A stretch of DNA of 20,818 bases from a virus. The DNA is taken from IMG/VR virus record IMGVR_UViG_3300042900_000713, positions 103,886-124,703 of that record. The stretch is one strand, 5' to 3'. Below the pieces are notes generated by a model. It saw only the letters and a program-made list of their open reading frames with translations, had not been told where the DNA came from and did not search any database. Numbering within the stretch: position 1 is the stretch's first letter; every line of letters starts with the position of its first letter. Positions 4,073 to 20,818 of this stretch are shown here, piece by piece. The position numbers and the translations under genes are program-made.

Positions 4073-5245
4073 TTAGGGGTCAGGTTGATATTGAATTGCT
4101 ATAGTATGATAACCTCCAGCAATAGATTTCCAATTGTTACCACCAAGTAGTGTAGTGACTGGAGTATTTCTTTGTGTAATATCATTGACTCCTAATTGTC
4201 CATAAACATTACGACCCCAAGTCCATAGAGTTCCATCAGTCTTAATTGCTATGGTATGAAAAAATCCACTCGCAATAGATTTCCAATTGTTACCACCAAG
4301 TAGTGTGGTGACTGGAGTGCTTCTATGTGTGGTATCATTTACACCTAATGCTCCATAAGAATTACGACCCCAAGTCCATAGAGTTCCATCAGTCTTAATT
4401 GCTATGGTATGAAAACCTTTACCAGCAATAGATTTCCAATTGGTTCCACCAAGTAGTGTGGTGACTGGAGTGCTTCTAGATGTAGTATTATTTACACCTA
4501 GTTGTCCATTATCATTACTACCCCAATTCCATAAAGTCCCATCAGTATTAAGTGCTATAGTATGATAATATCCACCAGCAATAGATTTCCAATTGGTTCC
4601 ACCAAGTAGTGTGGTGACTGGAGTGCTTCTAGATGTAGTATTATTTACACCTAGTTGTCCATTATCATTATAACCCCAAGACCATAGAGTTCCATCAGTC
4701 TTAAGTGCTATGGTATGATAAAATCCACCAGTAATAGATTTCCAATTGTTACCACCAAGTAGTGTAGTGACTGGAGTGCTTCTTCGTGTAGTATCATTTA
4801 CACCTAGTTGTCCAAAAAGATTAGAACCCCAAGACCATAGAGTTCCATCAGTCTTAAGTGCTATCGTATGATAACCTCCACAAGCAATAGATTTCCAATT
4901 GTTACCACCAAGTAGCGTAGTGACTGGAGTGCTTCTATGTGTATTATCATTTACACCTAGTTGTACACTATTATTACCACCCCAAGACCATAGAGTTTCA
5001 TCAGTTTTAAGTGCTACTGTATGAGATTTTCCACTCGCAATAGATTTCCAATTGTTACCACCAAGTAGCGTAGTGACTGGAGTGCTTCTATATGTGGTAT
5101 CATTTACTCCTAATTGTCCATAAAAATTAAGACCCCAAGACCATAATGCAGGTTGTCTAAAAGTTTCTGCCGGAACAAAGACATCATAAAAATTATAAAC
5201 TACTCCGTTCTCTGTAAAACTATAATTAATATCGTCTGCGGGCAT
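4073..5245 (-). CDS. RCC1-repeat seven-bladed beta-propeller protein (copy C)
   Basis: The 390-residue protein has a unique N-terminal cap of about 32 residues and then seven tandem RCC1-type repeats of 51 residues, the last one residue shorter. Each blade reads roughly LWSWG-N-GQLGVN-TP-VTTLLGG-NWKSIAGG-HT-ALKTDG. Seven blades match a complete RCC1 propeller. There is no signal peptide. The role is not shown by the sequence; RCC1 propellers are binding platforms, and position next to fibre genes suggests a virion surface or adhesion protein. Alternatively it is a substrate of, or partner for, the modification enzymes around it. The start is supported by AAGGA placed seven bases upstream and partly overlapping the previous gene's stop. 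Blades differ at a few loop positions only. This copy lies inside the enzyme cluster, unlike copies A and B. Confidence 0.85.
   Translation of the reverse strand: MPADDINYSFTENGVVYNFYDVFVPAETFRQPALWSWGLNFYGQLGVNDTTYRSTPVTTLLGGNNWKSIASGKSHTVALKTDETLWSWGGNNSVQLGVNDNTHRSTPVTTLLGGNNWKSIACGGYHTIALKTDGTLWSWGSNLFGQLGVNDTTRRSTPVTTLLGGNNWKSITGGFYHTIALKTDGTLWSWGYNDNGQLGVNNTTSRSTPVTTLLGGTNWKSIAGGYYHTIALNTDGTLWNWGSNDNGQLGVNNTTSRSTPVTTLLGGTNWKSIAGKGFHTIAIKTDGTLWTWGRNSYGALGVNDTTHRSTPVTTLLGGNNWKSIASGFFHTIAIKTDGTLWTWGRNVYGQLGVNDITQRNTPVTTLLGGNNWKSIAGGYHTIAIQYQPDP
4091..5149 (-). repeat. Seven 153-bp RCC1 coding repeats (copy C)
   Basis: The array has a 153-bp period. Blades 4 and 5 share a 97-bp exact match (4421-4517 and 4574-4670), which points to recent unit duplication or gene conversion. 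The first repeat opens at Leu-Trp-Ser-Trp-Gly near 5146 and the last has a one-codon deletion in its GG-HT loop. Confidence 0.9.
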
Positions 5246-5250
5246 TTTAG

Positions 5251-5257
5251 GTTCCTT
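5251..5257 (-). promoter_or_regulatory. Shine-Dalgarno site of RCC1 copy C
   Basis: AAGGAAC on the minus strand partly overlaps the stop codon of the YkgJ-like gene and lies about seven bases before the ATG at 5245. It supports the chosen start and coupling of the two genes. Confidence 0.6.
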
Positions 5258-5609
5258 ACTGTTTTACAAATATTATAGGAGTATTCATTTTTTGACTCCA
5301 GTTTTCAAAATACTCTACTATATTATTATTTATTGATTCTTTAATTGTTTCAATAATTTTGAGATATTGTCCATTCTCATTATTTTCTACAGAAACTAAA
5401 AATCCACACTTATCTGGACGATATTCTTCGTCTATTAATTCTTGAGACCAGGCACAAAAATAATTCTCACAGGATTTTGGTCTTACTTTATGAACATCAC
5501 ATTTATTCTCACATAAAAATCTACAAGACTTTCCATTTCCAAACTCCCATCCATAAGCATCACCAGTCAACCAAGTGCAACAAACAGTGCAACCATTACA
5601 GTCTTTCAT
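5256..5609 (-). CDS. YkgJ-like cysteine-cluster protein
   Basis: This 117-residue protein carries the cysteine pattern of the YkgJ (UPF0153) family: C4-x2-C7-x2-C10-C11 at the N-terminus, then Cys29, Cys33 and Cys37, and a VRPKSC segment (42-47) followed by Cys52. The family is annotated as zinc- or iron-cluster binding, and its biochemical role is poorly known. The core ends near residue 75; the rest is a short tail without clear features. Its ATG forms an ATGA overlap with the upstream glycosyltransferase gene, and its stop provides part of the Shine-Dalgarno site for the downstream RCC1 gene. Its position between sugar-transfer and propeller genes suggests it serves the same modification process, possibly as a metal-centre oxidoreductase or maturation factor. 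That is inference only. Confidence 0.7.
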   Translation of the reverse strand: MKDCNGCTVCCTWLTGDAYGWEFGNGKSCRFLCENKCDVHKVRPKSCENYFCAWSQELIDEEYRPDKCGFLVSVENNENGQYLKIIETIKESINNNIVEYFENWSQKMNTPIIFVKQ

Positions 5610-6292
5610 TCAATATAATCCTCTTCTTTAAAATAATGATTCACTAAATCTATCTCACCATTATGTAGTCTTGAAGAGAAATTTTCATCCCATACTTTCA
5701 AAGATTTTACTTTATATTTTCCACCACTTCCAATCCAGAATTCTCTATCCAGTCTATATCCAGTTTCCAGATACTTATCATTTAGTTTGTTAATATAAGA
5801 AGCATTTGCCCACCAGAAGTTTCCAGGATAATGTCCAATATTATCTACATTTTTTGTAATCTCTCCATTCTCCCAAATCGTATCTCCCAAAATCAACCAA
5901 GTCTGCCCCACACAATCATAAGTATTCAAATATTCTACACATTCTTTCCATCTATCAATCACAAAGTATTCCATCATTAATCTCCAAGATTGTGATTCTA
6001 ATGTATTTTTAGAAGATCCTTTAGTATGAAAATATAGAATCTTATAGTCTGAATTTTCCTTACAAAAATCTCTTAAAGAAATCAAAGTTTCAGTCTCTTC
6101 GTTCCAGTTGGTATTTCTTTTAATTACTGCTTTTTCAGGAACATTAAAAAGTTCTTGGTCTCCATTTATCCCAAAATGAATATAATCTGATTCTTTAATT
6201 AATCCAGAAGCATATAATCTATGCAATTGAGATTGATAAATGAATGCTCCCAATCCTATTTGTGCGATATGATAGAAAATTGCAATCTTCAT
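5606..6292 (-). CDS. Putative glycosyltransferase of the HTKG / NFWWA type
   Basis: The protein has 228 residues. It starts with a beta-strand MKIAIFYHIA and has no secretion signal. The recognisable features are YFHTKGS (87-93), NFWWANASYI (158-167) and REFWIGSGG (183-191). The HTKG and NFWWA combination recurs in uncharacterised proteins of marine phages, giant viruses and some bacterial polysaccharide loci that are usually labelled glycosyltransferase. I recognise this from general knowledge and have no structural proof. The start overlaps the upstream stop as ATGA and its own stop overlaps the YkgJ-like start the same way, so it is part of a tightly coupled run. Its likely role is a sugar-transfer step in the same pathway as its neighbours. 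A non-catalytic glycan-binding role remains possible. Confidence 0.5.
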   Translation of the reverse strand: MKIAIFYHIAQIGLGAFIYQSQLHRLYASGLIKESDYIHFGINGDQELFNVPEKAVIKRNTNWNEETETLISLRDFCKENSDYKILYFHTKGSSKNTLESQSWRLMMEYFVIDRWKECVEYLNTYDCVGQTWLILGDTIWENGEITKNVDNIGHYPGNFWWANASYINKLNDKYLETGYRLDREFWIGSGGKYKVKSLKVWDENFSSRLHNGEIDLVNHYFKEEDYIE

Positions 6293-7074
6293 ATTGAATA
6301 ATTTGCGGTCTCCATTCCTTTATTTACATTTAATCCTAGATTTGGAATAGATATAATTCTTTCTTTATTTAAAAATCTATAGAGTGCGTGTTCAATATCA
6401 TTTCCTGTAGTATACTGTATCATTTTTTCCAAATATACGAAACTTCTTTCTAATGCTTCTATCGTCTCATTAAATAACATTTTATCAAAAGACCATAACC
6501 CAGTCACCATCATTCCTTCTGCCTGATATAGATAGGCATAAATATTTTCCAAATTATCAGTATTCATACTTTCTATTTCTTTATTTAAATAACTATAAGT
6601 CTTTGCGATGTAATAGTTTTCTAATAATTTACTTTCATAATCTTTAATTTCAAAATATTCATTTAAAGTATATCTTCCAGTTAATTTAAAAATTCTAGTT
6701 ACATCAGTAAAGAGTTGCTTATCTTTCATTAGATACAAACAGTTTAATATACCTCTGGTTTCTAGTAGTGACTTACCAAAAGTAATGAGTTCTGGTTTTT
6801 GTGAGAAATTTTCATAAAGAGTTTCAATTCCAGGTTCATTATAAAATTCTAAAAATAAATCTGATTTCTCCTGAAGAATTGATTTATATTCACTTGAGAT
6901 TGATTTATAAGAACATTCAAATAAACAAATATAAGCATTTGGAACTTTGGTTCTTATGGATTCAATTGTATCTAAAGTTTGAAAAAATCTTTGCTCTGTA
7001 TTATAACGACTATAATTCTTTTCGGCAAAATGCTCTAGTGAAGAACCAACTAGAAATAAAAATTTATAATCCAT
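6289..7074 (-). CDS. Putative glycosyltransferase-like protein with FKLTGRY motif
   Basis: The protein has 261 residues and begins with a hydrophobic strand (YKFLFLVGSS, 3-12) that looks like the first strand of a nucleotide-binding fold, not a signal peptide. The most distinctive stretch is RIFKLTGRYTLNEYF (127-141). K-x-(S/T)-G-R-Y is seen in phage and viral proteins annotated as glycosyltransferase-like. Later segments IEHALYRFL (227-235) and SIPNLGLNVNKG (242-253) also look conserved. It overlaps the upstream TPR-GT9 gene by 11 bases and joins the next gene by ATGA, so it belongs to the same translational unit. I cannot name a CAZy family. The glycosyltransferase call comes from the motif and from context. 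Confidence 0.45.
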   Translation of the reverse strand: MDYKFLFLVGSSLEHFAEKNYSRYNTEQRFFQTLDTIESIRTKVPNAYICLFECSYKSISSEYKSILQEKSDLFLEFYNEPGIETLYENFSQKPELITFGKSLLETRGILNCLYLMKDKQLFTDVTRIFKLTGRYTLNEYFEIKDYESKLLENYYIAKTYSYLNKEIESMNTDNLENIYAYLYQAEGMMVTGLWSFDKMLFNETIEALERSFVYLEKMIQYTTGNDIEHALYRFLNKERIISIPNLGLNVNKGMETANYSI

Positions 7075-8404
7075 TTAAAAACTCTCTCAATTGTTGTAAC
7101 GGTGCATCCCAGTTTCTGGGTTTCTTTTGACGAAATAGATGAACATTATCACCATACCACCAAGATTTTCCTGTTGAACTAGTCCAGGCATAATACTCCA
7201 TAATAGGAACAAAGACACATACTTCTTTACCCATAGAAGATGCAATATGAGCGATTGATGTGCAAGAAGTAATCACCAAGTCCATTTGATTTATAATAGA
7301 AAAAGTATCAGCAAATTCTCTATTTTTTGAATGAAATTCTTTGATGTTTCTTTTACAAGAATCTGGAACAGGAGTATCACTCATTTGTAAGGAATAAAGT
7401 GAATATTCAGGTTTGCCTAATACATTAAACAAATTAAAGAAATCTACACTTCTAAAATGTGCCTGTTCAAATCCAGAATCAGAATTCCAGAACATTCCAA
7501 TTTTATACTTTGTGTCTTTTTGAATATAAGAATATTGCTTTTCCTTCTCTGGTAATGGATTAAGATATGGTTCTTGACCTAAATCTTGCACTGAAAGTTG
7601 AAGATAATATGGAAGAGCAAGGGCATAAACCCAACAAGAGTTATCTGGATATTCTGGTTTATCCCAGACACAAACACTTTCAAAACCATTATAATTGAAA
7701 ATATCTGCTAAATGTTTTCTAGTGGTTGCCCATATAGGTCTCATTCCAAGTTCTTTCAGGTTCTTCATAAACCGAATATGCATAATTTCATCACCAGCAC
7801 CACAATTCGCATCAATCACAATTGTCTGATTTGGAGTAATTCTACCATTCCATTTTTGAAAAGGCAATTTAATATTCTTATATGCAGTCTTTTCTGTTTC
7901 TATGAGAAAGTGTTCAAGTGCCTTTGGTAAATCATCTTTATGAAAATAATAACCCGAAAGATTGTGATGAACCTTCTTTTCTATTTCCTCTGGTAAATCG
8001 TTTCTCTTTGAAAGATTAAAAAGTAACTTATGTGCCTTATCTAATTGTCCAAGTTGTGAATATGATGAGGTTTCTTCAAATAAAAGTTCTGGGTCATTTG
8101 GAGTGATTTTCTTACACTTTTCAATTTGAGTAATTGCTTTCTCTGGATAATTAAATTGATTATAAGCATTAATAAGATTTTTAGAAGTAATATATTTTTC
8201 TTCTGTGGTTGTTGCCTTATGAAGTGTCTTTTCTCCATATTCTATTGCTTTTGGAAGATTTTTAAGTTCAAAGAATATTTTTGATATTTCATCATATTGT
8301 GAAAATAGTTCTGCTCTTTTTCCAAATGCTTCTAATAATTCATAAGTAAGTTGTTTTTCATTAAACGAATATAAGGTTTTGGAGACCAATTCAAGAGGAT
8401 TCAT
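7064..8404 (-). CDS. TPR protein with C-terminal GT9/heptosyltransferase-like glycosyltransferase domain
   Basis: The 446-residue protein has two parts. Residues 1-175 are helical repeats of TPR type, with pairs such as LPKAIEYGEKTL (50-61) and QLDKAHKLLFNL (120-131). Residues 190-446 match the C-terminal domain of TPR-linked GT-B enzymes: CGAGDEIMHIRF (201-212) is the glycine-rich entry loop, KIGMFWNSDS (301-310) and FRSVD (317-321) follow, and DLVITSCTSIAHIASSMGK (375-393) with VHLFRQ (421-426) forms the nucleotide-sugar site. The order and spacing fit bacterial TPR/glycosyltransferase family 9 proteins, often found in glycan or flagellin glycosylation loci. The TPR part may bind the acceptor protein. 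It begins 25 bases after RCC1 copy B with no clear Shine-Dalgarno sequence, and opens the enzyme block. Confidence 0.8.
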   Translation of the reverse strand: MNPLELVSKTLYSFNEKQLTYELLEAFGKRAELFSQYDEISKIFFELKNLPKAIEYGEKTLHKATTTEEKYITSKNLINAYNQFNYPEKAITQIEKCKKITPNDPELLFEETSSYSQLGQLDKAHKLLFNLSKRNDLPEEIEKKVHHNLSGYYFHKDDLPKALEHFLIETEKTAYKNIKLPFQKWNGRITPNQTIVIDANCGAGDEIMHIRFMKNLKELGMRPIWATTRKHLADIFNYNGFESVCVWDKPEYPDNSCWVYALALPYYLQLSVQDLGQEPYLNPLPEKEKQYSYIQKDTKYKIGMFWNSDSGFEQAHFRSVDFFNLFNVLGKPEYSLYSLQMSDTPVPDSCKRNIKEFHSKNREFADTFSIINQMDLVITSCTSIAHIASSMGKEVCVFVPIMEYYAWTSSTGKSWWYGDNVHLFRQKKPRNWDAPLQQLREFLNGL

Positions 8405-8429
8405 ATAAAAATAATATATTTAAAAGTAT
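8405..8429 (-). promoter_or_regulatory. AT-rich spacer before the enzyme block, possible promoter
   Basis: This is the longest untranslated gap in the window, 25 bases and almost purely A/T. On the minus strand, TCTAAATA (8434-8427), overlapping the RCC1 stop, is two changes from the T4-type late promoter box TATAAATA, and no Shine-Dalgarno sequence is present before the ATG at 8404. The match is weak, so a promoter is only a possibility. Confidence 0.2.
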
Positions 8430-9653
8430 TTAGATGTAATCTACAGATTGAATTGCTATTGTATGAAAACCTCCACCAGCAATAGATGTCCAATTGGTTC
8501 CACCAAGTAGTGTGGTGACTGGAGTTCTTCTAGGGGTAAGATCATTTACTCCTAATGCTCCATAACCATTAGCACCCCAAGACCATAAAGTTCCATCAGT
8601 CTTAAGTGCTATTGTATGATAACCTCCACAAGCAATAGATTTCCAATTGGTTCCACCAAGTAGTGTAGTGACTGGAGTGAATTTAGTTGCATTATTATTT
8701 ACACCTAGTTGTCCAAAATCATTATAACCCCAAGACCATAAAGTTCCATCAGTCTTAAGTGCTATGGTATAAGAAAGCCCACCCGCAATAGATTTCCAAT
8801 TGGTTCCACCAAGTAGTGTAGTGACTGGAGTGCTTCTATTTGTAGTATCATTTACTCCTAGTCGTCCATAAGAATTATAACCCCAAGACCATAAAGTTCC
8901 ATCAGTCTTAAGTGCTATTGTATGATAATATCCACCAGCAATAGATTTCCAATTGGTTCCACCAAGTAGTGTAGTGACTGGAGTGCTTCTATGTGTAGTA
9001 TCATTTACTCCTAGTTGTCCAAAATTATTACGACCCCAAGACCATAGAGTTCCATCAGTCTTAAGTGCTATGGTATGATAACCTCCACAAGCAATAGATT
9101 TCCAATTGGTTCCACCAAGTAGTGTGGTGACTGGTGTAAATATACCTGTTCTAGTATCATTTACTCCTAATGCTCCATAATTATTAGCACCCCAAGACCA
9201 TAGAGTTCCATCAGTCTTAAGTGCTATGGTATGATATTGTCCACCCGCAATAGATTTCCAATTGTTACCACCAAGTAGTGTAGTGACTGGAGTTCTTCTA
9301 GTTGTAGGATCATTTGCACCTAATGCTCCATAATCATTATTACCCCAAATCCATAAAGTTCCATCAGTCTTAAGTGCTATGGTATGATATTGTCCACCAT
9401 CAATAGATTTCCAATTTGTTCCACCAAGTAGTGTGGTGACTGGAGTGCTTCTATTTGTAGTATTATTTACTCCTAGTTGTCCATTAACATTATAACCCCA
9501 AGACCATAAGGAAGGAGTAACTGATAATCCAGAATTACCGAGTGAATCTAAAATAGGACCATAGACCTCTAAAAGATAGTCTTTACTGACTAACTTTTTA
9601 CCTAAATCTACACCATCACTGTCTTTAAAATTAGTTGTTGGTTGGTAAGGCAT
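8430..9653 (-). CDS. RCC1-repeat seven-bladed beta-propeller protein (copy B)
   Basis: The 407-residue protein has an N-terminal cap of about 47 residues and seven RCC1-type blades of 51 residues (blade 3 has 52). The cap contains FKDSDGVDLGKKLVSKDYL (9-27), a type of opening I associate with marine phage structural proteins, which supports a virion role and suggests the cap is the docking part. The blades are close to those of copies A and C in both protein and DNA, but loop residues differ; for example blade 2 has LGANDPTTRRTP and blade 6 has NNNATKFTP. The C-terminal tail QSVDYI is nearly the same as QSVDFS in copy A. The gene overlaps the end of the DUF4376-like gene by 23 bases and has only a weak upstream AGAG, so translation is probably coupled. 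Confidence 0.85.
   Translation of the reverse strand: MPYQPTTNFKDSDGVDLGKKLVSKDYLLEVYGPILDSLGNSGLSVTPSLWSWGYNVNGQLGVNNTTNRSTPVTTLLGGTNWKSIDGGQYHTIALKTDGTLWIWGNNDYGALGANDPTTRRTPVTTLLGGNNWKSIAGGQYHTIALKTDGTLWSWGANNYGALGVNDTRTGIFTPVTTLLGGTNWKSIACGGYHTIALKTDGTLWSWGRNNFGQLGVNDTTHRSTPVTTLLGGTNWKSIAGGYYHTIALKTDGTLWSWGYNSYGRLGVNDTTNRSTPVTTLLGGTNWKSIAGGLSYTIALKTDGTLWSWGYNDFGQLGVNNNATKFTPVTTLLGGTNWKSIACGGYHTIALKTDGTLWSWGANGYGALGVNDLTPRRTPVTTLLGGTNWTSIAGGGFHTIAIQSVDYI
8448..9512 (-). repeat. Seven RCC1 coding repeats (copy B)
   Basis: Six units are 153 bp and the third is 156 bp, with one extra codon in its TP loop. The scaffold codons are nearly identical between units, and differences cluster in the codons after WG, before LG, before the TP segment, and in the GG-HT loop. 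Confidence 0.9.
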
Positions 9654-10308
9654 TAGGTGTCTCTACTATTTGAGGTTCTCTTAAAATTATATTATAAACT
9701 TCTTCACCAGTGGTACAAGCATCAATTTCTTGAAGTTTTTGATACTCCCAATCAAATGCTTCTTGAACTTTTAAATCAATCTGTGAAATAATATATTCAA
9801 GTTCTGTAGTTGTAATTTGCAACCAAACATCATTACCAAATTTAAAGTTATGAGGTCCTGGAGAAGCAATCAATTTACTCATATAAACTAATCTATTCTC
9901 ACGACTAGTTGAAACTGAAATAGTAGTTCCATTTAGTTCAATTTCAATATTGATATTTTCCTTTTCTTTACGAACTGGGGATACCTGTTGCTTATATTCA
10001 TATTTGATTGTTTCTAATGCCTTATTATAAACTGGATAAGTCATTTCAACTCTTATTGGAATATTATTTTCTTTTATAATTTCCCATTCAAAGTTTCCTA
10101 GACTCTGATATCTTGAATCGTGTTCTGGAATAATTTGAACTACAGAAAGAAGATAAGTATTCTCATCAATTTGTAGAGGTATATTCTCATAATCTCTTGG
10201 AGTAACTTTGCCTTCAACTTCAAGTTCTTCTAGTTCGGCATTAATTAATCGGTAATTATAACCAATTGGTCCTAAAATCAGTTGAGAATCGTGAATAAGT
10301 GAGTACAT
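9631..10308 (-). CDS. Tail-associated protein with DUF4376-like C-terminal domain
   Basis: The 225-residue protein has a DUF4376-like region at about 120-208: the block SRENRLVYMSKL (135-146), the strand NFKFGNDVWLQIT (154-166), a helix, and a closing FDWEYQKLQEIDACTTGEEVYNI segment (about 185-207) that fits the family's usual end. DUF4376 domains occur in phage tail-fibre assembly or tail-tip proteins; the precise function is not established. The first 110 residues are beta-rich and unassigned. It sits between RCC1 copies A and B: it starts 16 bases after copy A ends, in an AT-rich spacer with no Shine-Dalgarno sequence, and its end overlaps the copy B start. A role in attaching or assembling the neighbouring propellers is plausible, but comes only from position. 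Confidence 0.6.
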   Translation of the reverse strand: MYSLIHDSQLILGPIGYNYRLINAELEELEVEGKVTPRDYENIPLQIDENTYLLSVVQIIPEHDSRYQSLGNFEWEIIKENNIPIRVEMTYPVYNKALETIKYEYKQQVSPVRKEKENINIEIELNGTTISVSTSRENRLVYMSKLIASPGPHNFKFGNDVWLQITTTELEYIISQIDLKVQEAFDWEYQKLQEIDACTTGEEVYNIILREPQIVETPNALPTNN

Positions 10309-10324
10309 ATTGTTTTATAATTAT

Positions 10325-11503
10325 TTAGGAGAAATCTACTGACTGTCCTGCTGTGAGTGCTACTGTATAATAAGATCCACCAGCAATAGATTTCCAATTG
10401 TTACCACCAAGTAGTGTAGTGACTGGAGTGCTTCTATATGTAGTATCATTCACTCCTAGTTGACCATTACCATTATACCCCCAAGACCATAAAGTTCCAT
10501 CAGTCTTAAGTGCTACCGTATGAACACCTCCACCAGCAATAGATTTCCAATTATTACCACCAAGTAGTGTAGTGACTGGAGTGCTTCTATTTGTAGTATC
10601 ATTTACTCCTAGTTGTACAGAAGTATTAAGACCCCAAGACCATAGAGTTCCATCAGTCTTAAGTGCTATGGTATGATAAGATCCACAATCAATAGATTTC
10701 CAATTGTTACCACCAAGTAGTGTAGTGACTGGAGTGCTTCTAAATGTAGTATCATTTACACCTAATGGTCCAAAATTATTACTACCCCAAGTCCATAGAG
10801 TTCCATCAGTTTTGAGTGCTACCGTATAATAAAGCCCACCAGCAATAGATTTCCAATTGGTTCCACCAAGTAGTGTGGTGACTGGAGTGCTTCTAGTTGT
10901 AGTATCATTTACACCTAATTGTCCATTATTATTATAACCCCAAGTCCATAGAGTTCCATCAGTCTTGAGTGCTACTGTATGATAATATCCACCAGCAATA
11001 GATTTCCAATTGGTTCCACCAAGTAGTGTAGTGACTGGAGTGCTTCTATGTGTAGTATCATTTACACCTAATGCTCCATAAGTATTACGACCCCAAGACC
11101 ATAAAGTTCCATCAGTCTTAAGTGCTATGGTATGAAAACCTCCACCCGCAATAGATTTCCAATTGTTACCACCAAGTAGTGTAGTGACTGGAGTGCTTCT
11201 ATGTGTAGTATCATTTACACCTAATGGTCCAAAATTATTATAACCCCAAGTCCATAGAGTTCCATCAGTTTTGAGTGCTACCGTATGAACACCTCCACCC
11301 GCAATAGATTTCCAATTATTACCACCAAGTAGTGTAGTGACTGGAGTGCTTCTAAATGTAGTATCATTTACACCTAATTGTCCATTATTATTATAACCCC
11401 AAGACCATAAGGTATCGCCGATATATTGGTCTATTAACTTATAATCAGTTATAAAATAATCTTCAATATCTCCAAATTGGTCAGATAAAAATTGATTAGG
11501 CAT
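10325..11503 (-). CDS. RCC1-repeat seven-bladed beta-propeller protein (copy A)
   Basis: The 392-residue protein has a 30-residue acidic N-terminal cap (MPNQFLSDQF, GDIEDYFITDY) and seven regular 51-residue RCC1 blades. Blades vary at the residue after WG (Tyr, Arg, Ser, Leu), at the two residues before GQLG or GPLG, before the RSTP segment (Phe, His, Thr, Asn, Tyr), and in the GG-HT loop, while the rest is nearly constant. The cap differs from copies B and C, so each propeller may attach to a different partner. The ATG abuts the stop of the S74 fibre gene as TAAATG and has AGGAG seven bases upstream, so it is co-translated with a fibre. This is the best evidence that the RCC1 family belongs to the tail or fibre module. 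Function beyond a binding platform is not shown. Confidence 0.85.
   Translation of the reverse strand: MPNQFLSDQFGDIEDYFITDYKLIDQYIGDTLWSWGYNNNGQLGVNDTTFRSTPVTTLLGGNNWKSIAGGGVHTVALKTDGTLWTWGYNNFGPLGVNDTTHRSTPVTTLLGGNNWKSIAGGGFHTIALKTDGTLWSWGRNTYGALGVNDTTHRSTPVTTLLGGTNWKSIAGGYYHTVALKTDGTLWTWGYNNNGQLGVNDTTTRSTPVTTLLGGTNWKSIAGGLYYTVALKTDGTLWTWGSNNFGPLGVNDTTFRSTPVTTLLGGNNWKSIDCGSYHTIALKTDGTLWSWGLNTSVQLGVNDTTNRSTPVTTLLGGNNWKSIAGGGVHTVALKTDGTLWSWGYNGNGQLGVNDTTYRSTPVTTLLGGNNWKSIAGGSYYTVALTAGQSVDFS
10355..11413 (-). repeat. Seven 153-bp RCC1 coding repeats (copy A)
   Basis: This is the most regular of the three arrays. Long stretches of scaffold are identical to units in copies B and C at the DNA level, which gives substrates for recombination between the three genes. 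Confidence 0.9.
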
Positions 11504-12997
11504 TTAGATTCTCCTCTCTAATTCTTCAATACGAAGTTGTTGTTCTTTAATTGCCTCAATCAATACTCCTATAAGATTTCCATAAGATACTGATTTTGTT
11601 CCATCATCATTAGTCTCAACAACTTCTGGAATAATTTTTTCAATATCTTGAGCAATTACACCAATTGAAGGTTTATCATTATGCTTCCAATCAAATCTTA
11701 CTCCATTAAGTTGTTTAGTGAGTTCAAGTGCATTCTTAATAGGTTCAATATTAGTTTTTCTAGATACATCTGAAAGTGAAGTGAACTGTGTTGCTGATAC
11801 GGTTCCTGTTGATGTAGTAAAGGTAAGTGCGGTAGATGAGGTATAAGCAGTTGAATATGTTCCAACAGTTGTAGCACTCATTGTTGGATATAAAGTTCCA
11901 GATGGAGTATTATTGAGTGTTGCGCCACCACTAAATGTTGTCCATCCAATTCCAGTTACAGTTGATTGAAGAACCTGACCTGTAGTTCCTGATGAATTTG
12001 TTGAGTCATAAATTGACCTTCCAATTCCCACATCACCAATTATAGAAAGAGTTCTTGTTGGATTTGTGGTTCCTACTCCAATATTACCACCATAAGCACC
12101 TAAAGAAATTACTCCACTTGCATCTACATCAATACTTGGAATACCTGAAATATCATTTACAGAGAAGAGGCTTCCAGTTGATAGATTATTTGTAATTGAG
12201 AATAATTGACCCGCACTACCTTCCCAAGATAAGGTGCCGGAGTTTAGAGTATCATAAGGAACAATATCAATTATAGTACCAATTCCAAGTGTACCAGTTG
12301 AAGGATTGAATTGGAGTTTTGTTGAAGAAACGTGAGCAGTTTTGGCAATTCCTGATGTGACCGAAAGAATTCCAACATACCAGTTTGAATTTGTTGTGGT
12401 GTTATCAAATACAGTAAATCCACCATCACTAGAACCTTGAACTCCTTGAACTCCTTGAGCACCTTGGACTCCTTGGGCACCCTGAACTCCTTGAGCACCT
12501 TGGACTCCTTGGGCACCCTGAACTCCTTGAGCACCTTGGACTCCTTGAGCACCTTGGACTCCTTGGGCACCCTGAACTCCTTGAGCACCTACAATTCCTT
12601 GAGCACCCTGGACTCCCTGAAGTGCAGCAGTTGCAATTGGTATCCAACTGACTCCAATACCAGTGGAAATTAATACAGAACTTGCAGTACCTACTTGATT
12701 ATTACTATCCTTTAATCCCCCAGCAATTTTGATATAACTATCAGTCTGCCCTAATGATACTGTTTTATTAGTAAGACCTCGTATTTCTCCACTCTGTTCA
12801 AAAACAATATCTACGTTATTAACACCATCACCAATAAAAATATCACGACTTGTATCACCAAGAGTTAAATCTCCACCCGGATTTGCGATGTTGAGATTTC
12901 CATTATCATCCAACTGAATAGTCGCACTACTAATGCCGGTATTTCCTTGAAAATCTACTAGACCCGATGCGGGTGTTATGATTACATCTTTTGGCAT
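11504..12997 (-). CDS. Collagen-like tail fibre with C-terminal S74 intramolecular chaperone
   Basis: The 497-residue fibre has a beta-rich N-terminal region (1-125), a collagen-like arm of about 21 G-X-Q triplets (about 127-188), a modular shaft containing VGIGRSIYDST and GNIGVGTTNP, and a C-terminal peptidase S74 chaperone (about 407-497). The chaperone motif SDVSRKTNI starts at Ser409 and has Lys414 five residues later, the Ser-Lys spacing of endosialidase-type chaperones that cut themselves off after the trimer folds. IGVIAQDIEKIIPEVV, SYGNLIGVLIEAIKE and a final coiled coil follow in normal order. I chose the ATG at 12997, not an upstream TTG at 13018, because GGAGGGGGAG sits nine bases before it and because all nearby structural genes start MP. 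The fibre is likely trimeric and part of host adsorption. Confidence 0.85.
   Translation of the reverse strand: MPKDVIITPASGLVDFQGNTGISSATIQLDDNGNLNIANPGGDLTLGDTSRDIFIGDGVNNVDIVFEQSGEIRGLTNKTVSLGQTDSYIKIAGGLKDSNNQVGTASSVLISTGIGVSWIPIATAALQGVQGAQGIVGAQGVQGAQGVQGAQGVQGAQGVQGAQGVQGAQGVQGAQGVQGAQGVQGVQGSSDGGFTVFDNTTTNSNWYVGILSVTSGIAKTAHVSSTKLQFNPSTGTLGIGTIIDIVPYDTLNSGTLSWEGSAGQLFSITNNLSTGSLFSVNDISGIPSIDVDASGVISLGAYGGNIGVGTTNPTRTLSIIGDVGIGRSIYDSTNSSGTTGQVLQSTVTGIGWTTFSGGATLNNTPSGTLYPTMSATTVGTYSTAYTSSTALTFTTSTGTVSATQFTSLSDVSRKTNIEPIKNALELTKQLNGVRFDWKHNDKPSIGVIAQDIEKIIPEVVETNDDGTKSVSYGNLIGVLIEAIKEQQLRIEELERRI
11511..11518 (-). promoter_or_regulatory. Shine-Dalgarno site of RCC1 copy A
   Basis: GAGAGGAG on the minus strand lies seven bases before the ATG at 11503 and within the last codons of the S74 chaperone (ERRI). 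It supports the start and coupling of the two genes. Confidence 0.7.
12432..12620 (-). repeat. Collagen-like G-X-Q repeat array (S74 fibre)
   Basis: About 21 tandem 9-base units encode Gly-(Val/Ala)-Gln, mostly alternating GVQ and GAQ. The plus strand reads as CTTGAGCAC-like units. Proline is absent, and nearly every third triplet residue is Gln. Confidence 0.9.
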
Positions 12998-12998
12998 T

Positions 12999-15458
12999 TT
13001 AGAAAACTCCCCCTCCAAGTCTTATTTTTCTTTCTGATAGAGAACTTCCAACATTAACAAGTGCTGAATTAGTTTGACTACCATTTATTGTGGCAAATGC
13101 TTGAACGGCGTATGGTTTATCTAATAAAACAGTAATATTTTTCATCCAGCATCCCTCAGAAGAAGTGGCTGAATCTACATGAACACCTATATTTATATAA
13201 CGAGAAAATGCCACTGGAGCAATTGTCAATTCTTTTGTTTCATAAGCACTTGTTGCAGCAGCACTAAACCGAACTGCTTCATTGCCACCAGCCATCCAAG
13301 TGCTGTTTTGACCACCAGAATTTGCTAACTGATTTGGTCCAACTCCAGATATTACATTTCTTTGTTCAAATATTGGATAAGTTCCAGAAAATCCTGGCGC
13401 CAATTTGATTTGTGCTTTTGCTCTTACAGTAACTCCTGCTGGAACAAAAACTGATTCAAACCAACCACTTCCATAATCAGAACCATCTGCAATCCAATAA
13501 ACTCTCCAAGCATCTTCGGCAGAATCCCAAAATCTTACAGAAAGATAAGTTTGTTGATAGATAGCATCATATTCCATATTATGTTCAATAACACTTCCAG
13601 ATGCACCATTATGTCCTCTATCAATATGCCCACCATGAAAACTTCCTCTAACCTGCAGATTATTGGCAGCAGGAGAATAACCACTAACAAACTCAAATAT
13701 AGAATATATTAGAGTGTTATTATTGTATGGATCCATTTCCATACCTCGTCTGTTTCCCGTATGTTTATGTTTATAGTATCCTCTATAAAAACCACTAACA
13801 AAATTAAGGTAGTCGGTTCCATTAGAAATGTAGTGATGAATCCCAACATTACCATCATAGAAGTGAAATCTACCTGCCCTAGTTGAACGAGAAATATAAA
13901 CATAACCAACTTCTGCCCATTCACTTGATCCCTCCAATCTACATCCCCATGCTTCACTAGCAACTCCTATACTATTATAAAGACATAGACCCTCACGATA
14001 CCATAAAGCATATGAAACGTTGAATCTACCTTGAACATGGCAACATCTTATCTGATCATATCTACCATAAATCCAAAATCCCCCCAAATCTCTAGTAGAG
14101 TTTGAACCTGTCATTACAATTCCTTCTAACCAACTATTCTGACTGTGTGCTGGAATAGTATTTGTTAAAGTAACAGGCAAACTCACATTAGATTTCCAAG
14201 TACCGGGTCCAAGATATAATCCCCCTTCTGCTTGCCCTTGACTGCTGCCCGCATACTTCAAATATACATCTTTAAAAATTATTGCTCTGGAGTAATTGGT
14301 GCCACCTGCTTCAATATACACTCCATAATAGTCTGTGTTTGGAGTAACTGGTTCAATAACTACATCTCGTGTTAAACGATTGACTAATGCACCAGAAACT
14401 ACATTATAACCAACGGCAGCAGTAAGTGTAATAATACTTCCAGAAACAGATGAAATTGTGTGTTTATATCTTGGTCCGGGTGTTTCATTTCCATACGCAC
14501 TTTGGGCATAGTCAGTTGATCCTCCTGCCTCACTTCTGGCTTCAATCCAAATATCATCATTTGCAACAAACATATTGGCATTTGCTACAGTAATTGTTGT
14601 TGATGCTGCAAGAGAAGAAACAGTAGTAACAGTAGCACACTTTCTCACTTTGTTATTAATAGTGTGAATCTTATCGGAACCAGTTTCATAAACAGTTAAT
14701 CCCGTAACAGTACCAGTAACAGAACCTGATAGTGTCAGTGTGTGGTTGAGATAATTAATTGCACTAATAGTATGAATATTACGATTTGCACCAGTACCAA
14801 AGATAATTATTTGACCAACACGGAATACTTTTGAATTAACAACAACTAAACTTGTTCCAGAAGCAGAAACAACTGTAGATTCTGGTCCAACAAACTGTCT
14901 AAAATAAACTGTATTAGAATCAATATCGTGAATCCAAAACCCCTCATCTCTTAATGTAGATGCTCCTGCATTTGATGCTTGAGTGGTTGTATTATCAAAT
15001 ATAGCAAACCATTCTCCCACTGCAAAATTTGTAGCAGAAGTAAAAGCAAAACTTGTTGCTCGTTCATTTGCACCAGATGAAAGAGTGGTGGTTGGCATAC
15101 CATCACTACCTTCCATAATAACGCTTGCGCCAGTTTCTCCTTGTCCATAAAGGATATGAGAAGCAGCAGCAGTTCCTCTAAATTGTAACTTATGTCCTGC
15201 TCTTGCGTGATAAGTTCCATTAGTTCTTATTCTTAATCTTCCATTCATTCTCAAGGTGGTTCCTGCACCAACTTGAGTTTGTAAAGTTCCATAGACATCA
15301 CTATCATCAAAACCGTTTGTGACTGGTGTTGAGACATTATAAGTGACTGTATGTCCAGTTGCAATTACAAAACTATCAGCATCAACAGGTGCTACTCCAC
15401 CAACCCAAGTTGCTCCTGCTGAAAAATTACCAGTTGTAGTAGATGTAATAACTGCCAT
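12999..15458 (-). CDS. G8-like / right-handed beta-helix virion protein
   Basis: The 819-residue protein starts with a region that resembles a G8 domain: GATWVGGVAPVDADS (15-29), IATGHTVTYN (32-41) and VYGTLQ (55-60), the W-x-P-G pattern and hydrophobic strands usual for that fold. After this come many short beta-strands with Gly, Asn and Ser turns, as in right-handed beta-helices used by phage tail spikes and lyases. The segment near 490-640 has several Cys, Tyr, His and Trp residues (for example IRCCHVQGRF, GYYKHKHTGNRRGMEMDP) and could hold a binding or active site; I cannot identify catalytic residues. There is no signal peptide. The ATG overlaps the stop of the 52-residue gene as TAATG, and there is no good Shine-Dalgarno sequence, so translation is probably by re-initiation. 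The likely role is a receptor-binding or polysaccharide-degrading tail protein. Confidence 0.6.
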   Translation of the reverse strand: MAVITSTTTGNFSAGATWVGGVAPVDADSFVIATGHTVTYNVSTPVTNGFDDSDVYGTLQTQVGAGTTLRMNGRLRIRTNGTYHARAGHKLQFRGTAAASHILYGQGETGASVIMEGSDGMPTTTLSSGANERATSFAFTSATNFAVGEWFAIFDNTTTQASNAGASTLRDEGFWIHDIDSNTVYFRQFVGPESTVVSASGTSLVVVNSKVFRVGQIIIFGTGANRNIHTISAINYLNHTLTLSGSVTGTVTGLTVYETGSDKIHTINNKVRKCATVTTVSSLAASTTITVANANMFVANDDIWIEARSEAGGSTDYAQSAYGNETPGPRYKHTISSVSGSIITLTAAVGYNVVSGALVNRLTRDVVIEPVTPNTDYYGVYIEAGGTNYSRAIIFKDVYLKYAGSSQGQAEGGLYLGPGTWKSNVSLPVTLTNTIPAHSQNSWLEGIVMTGSNSTRDLGGFWIYGRYDQIRCCHVQGRFNVSYALWYREGLCLYNSIGVASEAWGCRLEGSSEWAEVGYVYISRSTRAGRFHFYDGNVGIHHYISNGTDYLNFVSGFYRGYYKHKHTGNRRGMEMDPYNNNTLIYSIFEFVSGYSPAANNLQVRGSFHGGHIDRGHNGASGSVIEHNMEYDAIYQQTYLSVRFWDSAEDAWRVYWIADGSDYGSGWFESVFVPAGVTVRAKAQIKLAPGFSGTYPIFEQRNVISGVGPNQLANSGGQNSTWMAGGNEAVRFSAAATSAYETKELTIAPVAFSRYINIGVHVDSATSSEGCWMKNITVLLDKPYAVQAFATINGSQTNSALVNVGSSLSERKIRLGGGVF
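13007..13016 (-). promoter_or_regulatory. Shine-Dalgarno site of the S74 fibre gene
   Basis: GGAGGGGGAG on the minus strand ends nine bases before the ATG at 12997 and overlaps the last codons (GGGVF) of the upstream gene. It decides the start. Confidence 0.65.
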
Positions 15459-15616
15459 TATGGTGTTGTGCTAAGGTATGGATAATTAACTTCTGGTTCT
15501 GGAATACTGATTTCAAGTTCAATCATATTCTCATCTTCTCTTATGTAGTTTATTACACAAGGTTCATCCGCAGTTGCTTCAAGTGTATTCTTATTAATTG
15601 TTATTTTGGTAATCAT
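15458..15616 (-). CDS. Small 52-residue hypothetical protein in the fibre operon
   Basis: This short gene lies between the giant fibre and the G8-like protein. It starts with ATG at 15616-15614, sharing a base with the fibre stop (TAATG), and ends with TAA at 15460-15458, sharing a base with the next ATG (also TAATG). GAGG lies ten bases upstream. The protein begins [10 protein letters not shown], is acidic, and ends in a proline-containing tail EPEVNYPYLSTTP. It has no membrane segment or motif that I know. The two exact stop-start overlaps and the complete lack of space around it are strong evidence that it is real. It could be a small tail chaperone or fibre-associated peptide, but nothing in the sequence establishes that. 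Confidence 0.7.
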   Translation of the reverse strand: MITKITINKNTLEATADEPCVINYIREDENMIELEISIPEPEVNYPYLSTTP

Positions 15617-18600
15617 TAGAATTCAACCTCTAGTTTTGCTACATCCTTTCTTTCTGCAAATATTGTGTAGTAATAATTCAGTTCACCCTCTTCTTTAGAG
15701 AATATTTCCACAGTATTATTTATTACTCTATTTACTCTTGGTGTTGCACTCTCACCGATTGGAGTGAGATTGACTGTAATTGTTTCTGCATCAACTAATC
15801 CAGTCCAATAATCTGGAAGTTCTATAATAGAACTTTGAGTTCTTCCTCTCACGTAAACACCAAGTTCCGGTCCTTCTAACGAACCATACTGAAGTTTCTT
15901 ACCTTCTTTTGTTGGGTGGTCGATAATGAAGGACTTTGTGGTTGCACCGAAGGAACCGACAACGTGAAGTTTGTATTGAGGATTTGTGGTTCCTATGCCG
16001 ACATTACCTGTTGTTCCTTTAACTAGAATTCCAAGTGATTGATCAGTAAATCCATTTGCTGGTTGAATTCTTATATCACCAATATCATTTCTAATTGTTA
16101 CATTATTTGCCCCACCATCTGTCGTTCTTCCAGAAGAATTAAGGAAAAAGTAAACGCCACCGCCACTTGAAACAAGTTTTAATCCAACATAAGATGCTGC
16201 ACCACTATTTGGATTATTAAATTCACTGAAATGAGAAGCGTTCTGATTTTTAAAAACTACAAGACTGTCACCTGGATTTGTTATTCCAACTCCAAGATTA
16301 CCAGAAACATAAGCACCACCAGTGACTTGAAGTCTTTGTGATGCGGTTCCTGTTGATGTTGCTGCTCCTACAAAAACATTAGCAGAACTTAAAGTATTAG
16401 TAGAAGCATTAAAGGCAAATGCTTGTGCAGTACTTCTTGCCTTTGCTGTTTGATTACTTCCAGTTCCAGCAACCATAACAGGATAAAGTGTTGTGGTTGA
16501 AGTATCATCAGTAGCATTAATAGTTGTGGATGGTCCCCCAGCACCCTGGACTCCTTGAGCACCTTGAACTCCTTGAGCACCTTGAACTCCTTGAGCACCT
16601 TGAACTCCTTGAGCACCCTGGACTCCTTGAGCACCTTGAGCACCTACATTACCAGTTCTTGAAAATTCTACTACTAATGTAGTTCCATTTGTTGGTAAAG
16701 AACCCGAAATGTGTGTTACTGGAATCTTAAAATAACCAGCAGCAGCAGTAACAGCACCAGTAACATTCCATACATTAACAATTGTTCCTACTGAAGATGC
16801 TGAAGTTATGTAAATATAACCTTTTTGAGCATTTGTAGAATCATCCCAAGTATCATACCAAGTGGTTTGAACATTTGAGTTTGAATCATTATTATCAATA
16901 AAAATTTGAGATACACTTCCTATAGTGGCATTATTATAAGCAATAACACCATTACCTGGATCTGCATCTGTAGTAGTGGTATTAAATGTATAAGGTACTC
17001 CACCTCTATTTCCTACAACTCCTTGAGCACCCTGGACTCCTTGAGCACCCTGGACTCCTTGAGCACCTTGAACACCTTGGGCACCCTGGAATCCTTGAGC
17101 ACCTTGAACACCTTGAGCACCTTGTGCTCCTTGACGACCTTGTGCACCTTGAGCACCTACATCACCTTGTCTTCCTTGAGCACCCTGGAATCCTTGAGCA
17201 CCCTGGAATCCTTGAGCACCCTGGACTCCTTGAGCACCTTGGACTCCTTGAGCACCTTGGAATCCTTGAGCACCCTGGACACCTTGAGAACCTGTTGCAC
17301 CTTGGATTCCTTGAGCACCCTGAACTCCTTGAGCACCTTGTGCACCTTGAGCACCTTGAGCACCTGTAGCACCCTGGATTCCTTGTGCTCCCTGAACTCC
17401 TTGAGCACCTTGAGCACCTTGAACACCTTGAGCACCTTGAGGACCTTGTAGTGCTGCTGTTGCTATTGATTCCCACTTAACACCAGAACCAGTAGAAAGT
17501 AATACAGAACTTGCAGTACCTACTTGATTATTAGAATCATAAAGACCAGCACGAAGTCTTATATCTCCATTTACATCAAGTTGTCTTGTTGCATTTGTGG
17601 TTCCAATACCAACAGAACCGGAAACATAAGCGCCGCCAGATACTTGTAAATTTTGTGAAGAAGTTCCTGTTGTTATTGAAGTTCCAACAACAACAACACC
17701 TTTACTCGGACTTAAAAAAGTATTACCATCATTTAAATTAATTATTATAGAATTATGTTCTATAGTAGTTCCTATAGACCTACCCTTTACTACAAATGAA
17801 TTGCCATCACCAAATCCACCGGGTCTAGTATCTAATCTAAAAATACCTCCAACTCGCCCGGTTTCAATACCTATTATTTGTGATACATTAATTCCATAAG
17901 ATAAAATTTCACCATTTACTTCTGTAAATAAAGCAGACGTAATTGTCCCAAGTCCACTAAAAATAATGCCACCATCTGTTGATGGAGTTCCTTCAGTAAT
18001 ATCTCCTATTTTTATATCACAGTCAGTATCTAAGATATGAAGTCTTGATGTTGGATTTGTGGTTCCAATGCCAACTCTTTGATTTACCGCATCATATACA
18101 AAGTTAGTTGCGCCGGCAGATACATTATTATTGTTAAAAATAACTTGAGAGTTGGAACCTGCTATTGGTCCTATGAGACCTTGAGCACCCTGGATTCCTT
18201 GTGCTCCCTGAACTCCTTGAGCACCCTGAGCACCTTGAACACCCTGGACACCTTGAGCACCTTGAGCACCCTGCACACCCTGGAATCCTTGTGCACCCTG
18301 AACACCCTGGAAACCCTGAGTACCTACTGCACCTTGAACTCCTTGTGCACCTTGAGCACCAACAGCACCTTGAATACCTTGAGCACCCTGAATGCCTTGA
18401 GCACCTTGTACACCTTGAGAACCTGTTGCACCTTGTGCTCCCTGGACTCCTTGAGCACCCTGGAATCCTTGAGCACCTTGAGCACCTTGGACTCCTTGAA
18501 CTCCTTGAGCACCTTGAACTCCTTGTGCTCCCTGGACTCCTTGAGCACCCTGGAATCCTTGTGCACCTTGGACTCCTTGAGCACCTTGGGCACCTTGACG

Positions 18601-20818
18601 ACCTTGGGCACCTTGAGGACCTTGCAATGCTATTTGTTGAATATTTGCCCAAGAAACACCAGCACCAGTAGAAATAAGAACTGAAGACGCAGTACCTACA
18701 TTATTATAAATGTCCCTTAATGTAGAATTCAATTCAATAGGACTCTCAAAAACAAAGTTTCCAGAACCATCAATTTGTGCTCTTACTGCCGCATTAGTAA
18801 CATCAACAAAACGAAGATTTGGTGTTGAAGTATTACCATAAACATCGAGATACCAAGCAGTTGCATTATCAGTTGCTCTACCAAAACTTAACTGACCACC
18901 TTCATTAGATGCATCAACTCTACCTGCCTTGATTTCTCCACCAACAACATCAAGTTTAATTCCTGCTGCTGGATTTGCTGTTCCTATACCAACACTCTGA
19001 TTTACTGCATCATATACAAAGTTAGTGGCACCTGCAGAAACATTATTGTTGTTAAAGATGATTTGTTTATTAGTACCAGCAATTGGTCCCGTTAAACCTT
19101 GAGCACCTTGAGCACCCTGGACTCCTTGAGCACCCTGGAATCCTTGAGCACCTTGAGCACCCTGGACTCCTTGAGCACCCTGGACTCCTTGAGCACCTTG
19201 AGCACCTTGAGCACCTTGAGCACCTTGAGCACCCTGAACACCTTGAACACCTTGGGCACCCTGGAATCCTTGAGCACCTTGAACACCTTGAGCACCTTGT
19301 GCTCCTTGACGACCTTGTGCACCTTGAGCACCTACATCACCTTGTCTTCCTTGAGCACCCTGGAATCCTTGAGCACCCTGGACTCCTTGAGCACCTTGGA
19401 CTCCTTGAGCACCTTGAGCACCCTGGACTCCTTGAGCACCTTGAGCACCCTGGACTCCTTGAGCACCTTGAACTCCTTGAGCACCTTGAACTCCTTGAGC
19501 ACCTTGAACTCCTTGAGCACCTTGAACTCCTTGAGCACCTTGAGCACCTTGACGACCTTGTGCACCTTGAACTCCTTGAACACCCTGAAGTGCGGCATTC
19601 TGTATTGTTGCCTTTCCTACAACAGTTCCACTTACATCATAAAGTGCAATAAAGTCACCACTTTGAGGGTCTGTAACGGTAGGTAATCCATTAATATCAA
19701 GACTTGTGGCAGTTCCAATAAATCTAGAAGCCGTGATTTGAGTATCAGTAACGTGAACTCCACCAACTGCCAAACGAACTCCATTTGGTACTTGAGTGCT
19801 TCCAATACCAACACCATAGTTGAATAGCCAGGCATCAGTAGTACCGGCACCTAAAGTACCACCTTTAATCCACATAATTTGCTTATATGTGGAAGAAATA
19901 CTATCAATACCAACAATATTAATATTAATTAATGGAGTGCCTTCGGTAGAAGCAATTGCAATACCACCGTGATTTGCCGTAGTATCAGTAGAAACATCCT
20001 GACCAAAGGCATTTGTTGTAAATCCTAATATAATATCTTTATCTTTAACAACTAGTTCATTAACAGAAATAAATGCCGTAGTACCACCAACAGTTATATT
20101 TCCAGTAACATTTAGATTTGAATTAATATTGGTAGCACCATTAACAGTGAGACCAGTAAATGTAGGAATATCAGTTAGTGTGATTGTCGCACCAACTCCA
20201 GATGCCGTTGCAGTTAGATTTCCACTTACAAAGTTGATTGAAGAAACTGAATTTGCACCACCTACAACAGAACCTTCTTCACGAATTGTAATACCAGTAA
20301 TTGCACCAGCAGAAGCAGCAGCAACCCAAGTAGGAGCAGCACCAACTCCATTTGATTGAAGAACAAATCCAGATGTACCGTTTGCTAAGAATACAGTACT
20401 ATCAGATGCAGATTGATAAGGTATATTACCAACAACACCACCTTTTAGATTAGTTGCTATACCAGCATTAGAAACATAATCAGCAATTGTGATAGTTGCC
20501 CCAGCACCAGATGCCGTTGCAGTTACATTTGGTCCTACAAAGTTAACAGAATTAACACTATCTGTAGTTCCTACAACAGAACCTTCTTCACGAATTGTAA
20601 TACCAGTAATTGCACCAGCAGAAGCAGCAGCAACCCAATCTACTCCAGAACCAGTTGATGCAAGAACTTGTCCGGGTGCTCCAGATTCATTATCCTTGTC
20701 AAAGAGAGAACCACGAAGTCTAATACCACCATTTACATCTAAGTTTGTTGTTGCATTTGTGGTTCCAATACCAACCTTACCAGTAACCTCTAATACTGTT
20801 TGATTTTCAGTATAAGAA
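15616..20818 (-). CDS. Giant collagen-like modular tail fibre, 5' end beyond window
   Basis: The frame is open from the stop at 15616 to the right edge, giving at least 1733 residues and no start. The first ATG inside (19875) is internal: upstream codons are open and encode typical fibre modules. In visible numbering, residues 1-400 contain VGIGTTNAT, two copies of [16 protein letters not shown] and [12 protein letters not shown]. Collagen-like arms lie at about 408-579, 731-882, 1121-1268 and 1391-1426, separated by beta modules with GIG-TNP and [11 protein letters not shown]. The last about 105 residues ([31 protein letters not shown], ending LEVEF) are a conserved C-terminal domain seen in other phage fibres, different from S74. 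This is probably a long trimeric fibre that reaches for the host, assembled with the neighbouring fibre proteins. Confidence 0.85.
16541..16648 (-). repeat. Collagen-like array D of the giant fibre
   Basis: About 12 Gly-X-Gln triplets, the shortest of the four arms. It lies between an Ig-like or beta module and a final VGIGTTNP shaft. Confidence 0.85.
17015..17456 (-). repeat. Collagen-like array C of the giant fibre
   Basis: About 49 triplets, mostly GAQ, GVQ, GFQ, with interruptions such as GATGSQ and GRQGDVG. It contains one copy of a 144-bp exact repeat (17064-17207). Confidence 0.9.
18171..18628 (-). repeat. Collagen-like array B of the giant fibre
   Basis: About 51 triplets with more Ile and Phe at the second position than the other arms (GIQGAQG, GFQGVQG). 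It ends in GLIGPIAG, nearly the same as the end of array A. Confidence 0.9.
19081..19595 (-). repeat. Collagen-like array A of the giant fibre
   Basis: About 57 triplets, the longest arm, ending GLTGPIAG. It carries the second copy of the 144-bp exact repeat (19239-19382). Confidence 0.9.
20261..20329 (-). repeat. 69-bp exact direct repeat in the giant fibre, copy 1
   Basis: Identical to 20570-20638. It encodes [19 protein letters not shown] plus a few residues, so the N-terminal fibre region contains a duplicated module of about 103 residues. Confidence 0.85.
20570..20638 (-). repeat. 69-bp exact direct repeat in the giant fibre, copy 2
   Basis: Second copy of the repeat at 20261-20329, offset by 309 bases, which is 103 codons and keeps the frame. 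Confidence 0.85.

Follow-up and report, generated by a model that had tools for sequence, protein, structure and literature searches.

Three Phage RCC1 Propeller Genes with Homogenized Blades and Diversified Loop Codons: Putative Tail Adhesins

Introduction

In the hnwd (het-d/het-e) family of Podospora anserina, WD40 propeller repeats are kept near-identical within and between genes by concerted evolution, and a few codons per repeat are diversified, paired at positions 7 and 9 around a fixed residue 8 and lying on one face of the propeller (PMC1805685). Phage adhesins of the Mtd type, which are varied by diversity-generating retroelements (DGRs), likewise have a frozen scaffold with variable NNY-type codons and a presumed binding face. 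Here we describe three RCC1 genes, designated A, B, and C, in a 20,818-nucleotide stretch of DNA from a freshwater phage, hereafter the window. It is the last 20.8 kb (positions 103,886 to 124,703) of the 124.7-kb IMG/VR record IMGVR_UViG_3300042900_000713, which is probably a fragment and may be incomplete. We consider it likely that genes A, B, and C encode exchangeable adhesin propellers of the phage tail, the blades of which are homogenized by recombination and the loops re-diversified by selection.

The authors of the phAPEC6 study state that no function is known for phage RCC1 genes, and in the library that we searched, the terms used led to no paper on RCC1 propellers as diversified phage adhesins. 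Gene order around the window genes agrees with that of S-SRM01, a freshwater phage of Synechococcus (Kyanoviridae) that has been cultured; the paper on that phage mentions neither its RCC1 genes nor mass spectrometry.

Results and Discussion

Genes A (390 aa, 4073..5245), B (407 aa, 8430..9653), and C (392 aa, 10325..11503) lie on the minus strand, with blade arrays at 4091-5143, 8445-9506, and 10355-11407, respectively. Each contains seven blades in a 51-residue register, except for one blade of 52 residues and one of 50. The 21 tandem-repeat matches exceed the curated cut-off and account for every PF00415 match in the record; gene A additionally scores 329 bits against PF25390. About 22 of the 51 blade positions are invariant across the 21 blades. 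Amino-acid entropy reaches 1.5-3.0 bits at positions 5, 7, 8, 18, 39, and 40, and a second set (positions 2, 10, 16, 20, and 37) shows 1.1-1.5 bits. In each blade, six to eight positions that lie on a single face of the propeller are strongly diversified, and the framework is almost identical over all 21 repeats. A first-pass annotation, made from the letters alone, had described such a scaffold with a few hypervariable loop positions, and the entropy peaks are the positions that it named. The same architecture recurs in relatives. A profile made from related phage blades retrieved 3112 blades in 402 genes, 351 of which have exactly seven. In the mean of 129 records, variability is highest in the same loop columns (5, 7, 8, 18, 38, and 39 in profile numbering), and every record among the relatives carries its own scaffold version.

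The location of the variable positions was examined with an AlphaFold2 model of gene C, built on 58 sequences, which gives a propeller with a predicted local distance difference test score (pLDDT) of 90. Its best fold match is UVR8, with a TM-score of 0.83-0.88, and other RLDs match as well, consistent with a closed seven-bladed beta-propeller. The strands of the model blade occupy positions -1 to 4, 19-24, 32-37, and 41-46. Because the connecting loops alternate between faces, this strand order places variable loops 5-18 and 38-40 together on the same side of the propeller, with the frozen segments 25-31 and 47-50 on the opposite side. The variable loops are thus predicted to share one propeller face. 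In a sequence alignment, the variable pair 39-40 coincides with the Trp-Arg of the UVR8 GWRHT motif, position 39 falling on the Trp; this motif lies at the UVR8 dimer interface.

The history of the genes was traced separately for their N-termini and their blades. At the N-terminus, genes A, B, and C pair one-to-one with S-SRM01 gp344, gp337, and gp335 (scores of 101-107 versus 21 or less), indicating that the three genes were already separate. Yet the 21 window blades form one clade with a support of 0.98, the nearest scaffold match of every blade lies inside the record, and scaffold identity is 0.937 within genes and 0.930 between genes. Separate orthologous N-termini combined with a single blade clade indicate concerted evolution across the genes. 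The comparison shows that a recent common blade gave rise to all 21, although the three genes that contain them differ in their N-termini. Similarities of the three main loops are uncorrelated in the window (r about 0 or negative), as would be expected if the loops were shuffled or changed independently. The loops presumably diversified after the blades were homogenized, because gene conversion that spares only bases 1 and 2 of adjacent codons is implausible.

Substitution rates, estimated by a counting method only, differ sharply between the two parts of the blade. Among the window blades, the nonsynonymous and synonymous proportions (pN and pS) are 0.52 and 0.06 in the loops versus 0.025 and 0.19 in the scaffold, corresponding to pN/pS ratios of 9.4 and 0.13. 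Together with the homogenization of three genes and the placement of the loops on one face, the loop ratio supports the first-pass proposal of diversifying selection with gene conversion on a binding surface. In the mechanism that we propose, near-identical blades would recombine with one another and with co-infecting relatives, so that blades and alleles are spread and shuffled, and ordinary point mutation under strong diversifying selection would re-diversify the loops. Purifying selection would maintain the scaffold, thereby keeping the repeats recombinable, and the variable face would bind a variable ligand on the host surface.

The third bases of the loop codons provide a record of this history. 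At positions 5, 7, 8, and 40, all 84 codons are NNT, as compared to 57.7 expected from the codon usage of the record given the amino acids. Four- and six-fold degenerate residues at variable positions hold the third base of their column in 70 of 73 cases versus 32.8 expected; when distinct codons are counted once, the values are 28 of 30 versus 13.2 (P = 4e-9). One explanation would be plain codon bias, in which the T endings arise from AT-rich codon use and from Tyr, Asn, Ser, Phe, and His being preferred in loops. Two-fold NNY residues by themselves do predict T in about 63-83% of cases, and the first-pass annotation had cautioned that AT-rich codon use may play a part. However, at four- and six-fold residues of the same genes, T ends 98% of loop codons (46/47) but only 46% of scaffold codons (170/372), showing that the endings do not reflect AT-rich codon use alone. 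These counts refute codon bias as a full account, and we regard it as very improbable.

The T excess at these four positions is real, but NNT is not a general rule for the variable codons. Every codon at position 10 (CAA, GCA, CCA, or CGA) ends in A, and relatives retain A (L021) or C (L024, L036, and L153) in the same or neighboring columns. These observations rule out NNT as a randomizing code and count further against codon bias. In a comparison of 94 non-redundant phages, the more the scaffold varies at synonymous sites, the more diverse are the third bases of the loops (Spearman 0.63, P 1.5e-11), whereas loop bases 1 and 2 are saturated at any age, with an average diversity of 0.6-0.7. 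Because position 10 is NNA, relatives retain A or C, and loop third bases track scaffold synonymous sites, the T endings are inherited from the ancestral blade and represent retained ancestry rather than a randomizing code. The common ancestor of the blades is recent, which has left their third bases little opportunity to change, whereas bases 1 and 2 of the loop codons have already reached saturation. The loop codons on one face have changed at bases 1 and 2, and their third bases and the scaffold have stayed ancestral.

The variable NNT and NNY codons on the frozen scaffold of a phage adhesin also resemble the variable regions of DGRs, and the first-pass annotation had suggested, as an alternative, a targeted process that draws on a template located elsewhere. 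In such a scheme, a DGR or similar template-directed adenine mutagenesis would randomize the loop codons. No RVT_1 match to a reverse transcriptase is present in the record, and no real one occurs in 22 related records, which include the complete S-SRM01 genome; the single sub-threshold RVT_1 match among these is an SbcC/gp46-like ATPase. Outside the three genes, the record contains no blade-like DNA that could be a template repeat beyond chance matches of about 31 bp or less. Moreover, adenines at synonymous sites next to the variable codons are kept: the third-base A of GGA at position 9 in 20 of 21 blades, that of position 10 in 21 of 21, and that of TTA or CTA at position 11 in 21 of 21. 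The AAT at position 6, between variable codons, is fixed in all 21 blades, as the first-pass annotation had pointed out in arguing against simple adenine mutagenesis, and there is no adenine-specific substitution. An aligned set of ten near-identical genomes shows a single changed RCC1 codon. A DGR is rejected on the reverse transcriptase, template, and adenine tests, as far as the incomplete record allows, and is extremely improbable.

Several observations weigh against recombination and selection as a complete account. Between orthologous genes that are 85-90% identical, loop pN/pS is only 1.08, and closer orthologue pairs give 0.43-0.44, with scaffold values of 0.14-0.19 in these comparisons. 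The large excess is therefore confined to the blades of recently homogenized genomes; it could be a burst explicable by selection, yet it is not fully accounted for. Where near-identical phages differ in a loop, a search for an intragenomic donor blade gave no convincing candidate, the contigs being incomplete. The only other contig from the population of the window, IMG/VR 3300042356_000788, shows 100% identity across 11.6 kb (window 4328-15921), RCC1 genes included, so that within-population variation is not visible for the window phage. Finally, receptor binding and virion location are putative for every member of the group, the former being deduced from domain fusions, the one-sided variable face, and gene turnover.

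Orthologue loop ratios of about 1 or less would also be expected if constraint were simply relaxed and the loop positions tolerated any residue without positive selection. Among the blades of two recently homogenized genomes, the window and L021, however, loop pN exceeds scaffold pS by a factor of 2.7-5.8, which is above neutrality, and the loop residues are not random (27% Tyr and 14% Asn). Relaxed constraint is therefore unlikely.

Near-identical phages allow the recent dynamics to be followed. In 27 sets retrieved through their RCC1 sequence, a procedure that favors identical alleles, RCC1 genes contain 148 changed codons in 71.5 kb and their neighbors 696 in 152.8 kb. Fewer changed codons per kilobase than in neighboring genes is inconsistent with population hypermutation. 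The changes are nonetheless skewed: the ratio of nonsynonymous to synonymous changes is 61:87 in RCC1 genes versus 135:561 in neighbors, and within blades it is 21:3 in loop columns versus 21:59 in other columns (Fisher P = 9e-8). Because retrieval by RCC1 sequence favors identical alleles, a second scan was made by the flanking sulfotransferase gene in one lineage, which frees the comparison from this bias. Contigs with flanks more than 99% identical have near-identical RCC1 alleles, except for L152 (75%). In L152 and L159, the flanking gene is 99.3% identical and the whole RCC1 gene has been swapped for an allele of 75% identity. Contigs with 90-96% identical flanks have RCC1 alleles that align at about 64-80%, with L097/L264 as the exception. 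These results indicate that RCC1 turnover is fast at the level of the gene, though it is not constant hypermutation.

L088 (2984-3012) and L089 differ by three single-nucleotide polymorphisms in 9.4 kb, all within loop codons of one RCC1 blade and including an adjacent double change of ACT to GGT. A specific process other than reverse transcription, so far unrecognized, might rapidly re-diversify the loop codons of all blades after each homogenization. It would explain why loop divergence among the blades of the window and L021 exceeds the orthologue prediction, and why near-identical phages such as L088 and L089 sometimes differ solely by clustered double changes in loop codons. We assign this process only a slim chance and favor recombination coupled to ordinary mutation and selection.

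The genomic setting argues for a role in the tail. The stop codon of a minus-strand tail-fiber gene with collagen-like repeats and Peptidase_S74 (11504..13018) abuts the start of gene C. Farther along the same strand, a 1733-aa collagen-like open reading frame (ORF; 15616..20817), open at the window end, encodes a putative tail-fiber or baseplate protein; its place corresponds to the baseplate wedge gene of S-SRM01. The order in S-SRM01 is baseplate wedge, long tail fiber distal subunit, RCC1, hypothetical, RCC1, TPR, several genes, RCC1, and sulfotransferase. Among relatives, L019 (2-5998) combines RCC1 propellers, collagen repeats, and the Peptidase_S74 chaperone in a single 1999-aa ORF, and collagen-like stretches occur within the same ORF in 4 of the 402 RCC1 genes. 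PollyC joins RCC1 to a weak N-terminal Phage_T7_tail match (23.1 bits, below the cut-off of 25.2). Because of these fusions to collagen/S74 or T7-fiber domains, we read the propellers as tail adhesins. Alternatively, the propellers could have DNA or the chromosome as their target, as their family name would imply, or work inside the host cell. PHROGs files the family under DNA metabolism, and the phAPEC6 authors speculated on DNA ordering. The tail-fiber neighborhood, the fusions, and the gene-level turnover next to conserved neighbors all speak against such roles, which we regard as distinctly unlikely. A DNA role based on name, category, or that speculation is not supported for the group to which the window belongs.

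The remaining neighbors include candidate modification enzymes, also on the minus strand. A TPR protein with a GT-B fold (7064..8404) is encoded directly downstream of gene B, and gene A is followed immediately by a sulfotransferase gene (PF13469/PF00685; 3280..4059), an arrangement shared with S-SRM01. Genes for TPR + GT-B proteins are close neighbors of RCC1 genes, at a distance of 100 bp or less in 119 of 136 cases, a sulfotransferase is present in 97 of 144 RCC1 loci, and L159 (6228-7988) encodes a sulfotransferase fused to a TPR region. The window TPR protein resembles SPINDLY and OGT in Foldseek, with low TM-scores that give a domain-level hint only. Its residues 175-446 resemble GT9/TibC heptosyltransferases (VIA-align; Z 15.6-17.6, root-mean-square deviation 3.0-3.5). 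The substrates of OGT, SPINDLY, and TibC are proteins. By analogy, the TPR + GT-B protein may glycosylate the propellers, or the sulfotransferase may sulfate them; tyrosine makes up 27% of the window loop residues, an observation noted alongside the latter enzyme.

Between genes B and C lies a gene for a 225-aa protein (9631..10308, minus strand) with neither a PHROG nor a Pfam match, in the place of S-SRM01 gp336. An 819-aa ORF between the tail-fiber genes (12999-15458) also lacks Pfam and PHROG matches. A small cysteine-rich protein (CNGCTVCC; 5256-5609) adjoins gene A, and its sole match is PHROG 9155, of unknown function. A 721-aa ORF (438-2603) matches methyltransferase families in two stretches and GT2 glycosyltransferase families. 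A search of the record for psbA found none.

Conclusions

In aquatic phages, many of the genes named "regulator of chromosome condensation" and assigned to DNA metabolism are argued here to encode tail-module propellers with one diversified face. A single IMG/VR scan alone yielded 298 candidate stretches, and the propellers offer a testable determinant of cyanophage host range.

Among phages, S-SRM01 gp335, gp337, and gp344 share gene order, orthologous N-termini, fold family, and variable columns with the window genes, but their scaffold is of a different version and has diverged further (identity of 0.90 versus 0.93 in the window). The Pseudomonas phages PollyC and Littlefix have the RCC1 fold within annotated tail-fiber or tail proteins; there, however, the blades are degenerate and fused to fiber parts, whereas the window propellers are separate genes. 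UVR8, RCC1, and the HERC RLDs share the fold, but they are eukaryotic, their blades are not near-identical repeats, and they are not tail proteins. The DGR adhesins are similar in scaffold, codon type, and presumed binding face and differ in all three defining features, namely reverse transcriptase, template, and adenine specificity.

As an analogy of evolutionary pattern, the fungal hnwd family is the closest, although the window genes are not members of it. Both show concerted evolution across loci, seen here as one blade clade behind orthologous N-termini, and diversifying selection on a few codons of one face, which in the window are paired at positions 5 and 7 around Asn6 and placed by modeled loop topology. 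The hnwd proteins are WD40 allorecognition receptors with a NACHT architecture, whereas the window genes comprise an RCC1 domain and a short N-terminus only and are read as phage tail proteins; no sequence homology is claimed. The propellers would be nature's equivalent of designed repeat-protein binders, a binding scaffold shaped by concerted evolution and diversifying selection as in the fungal allorecognition propellers, but in an unrelated protein family.

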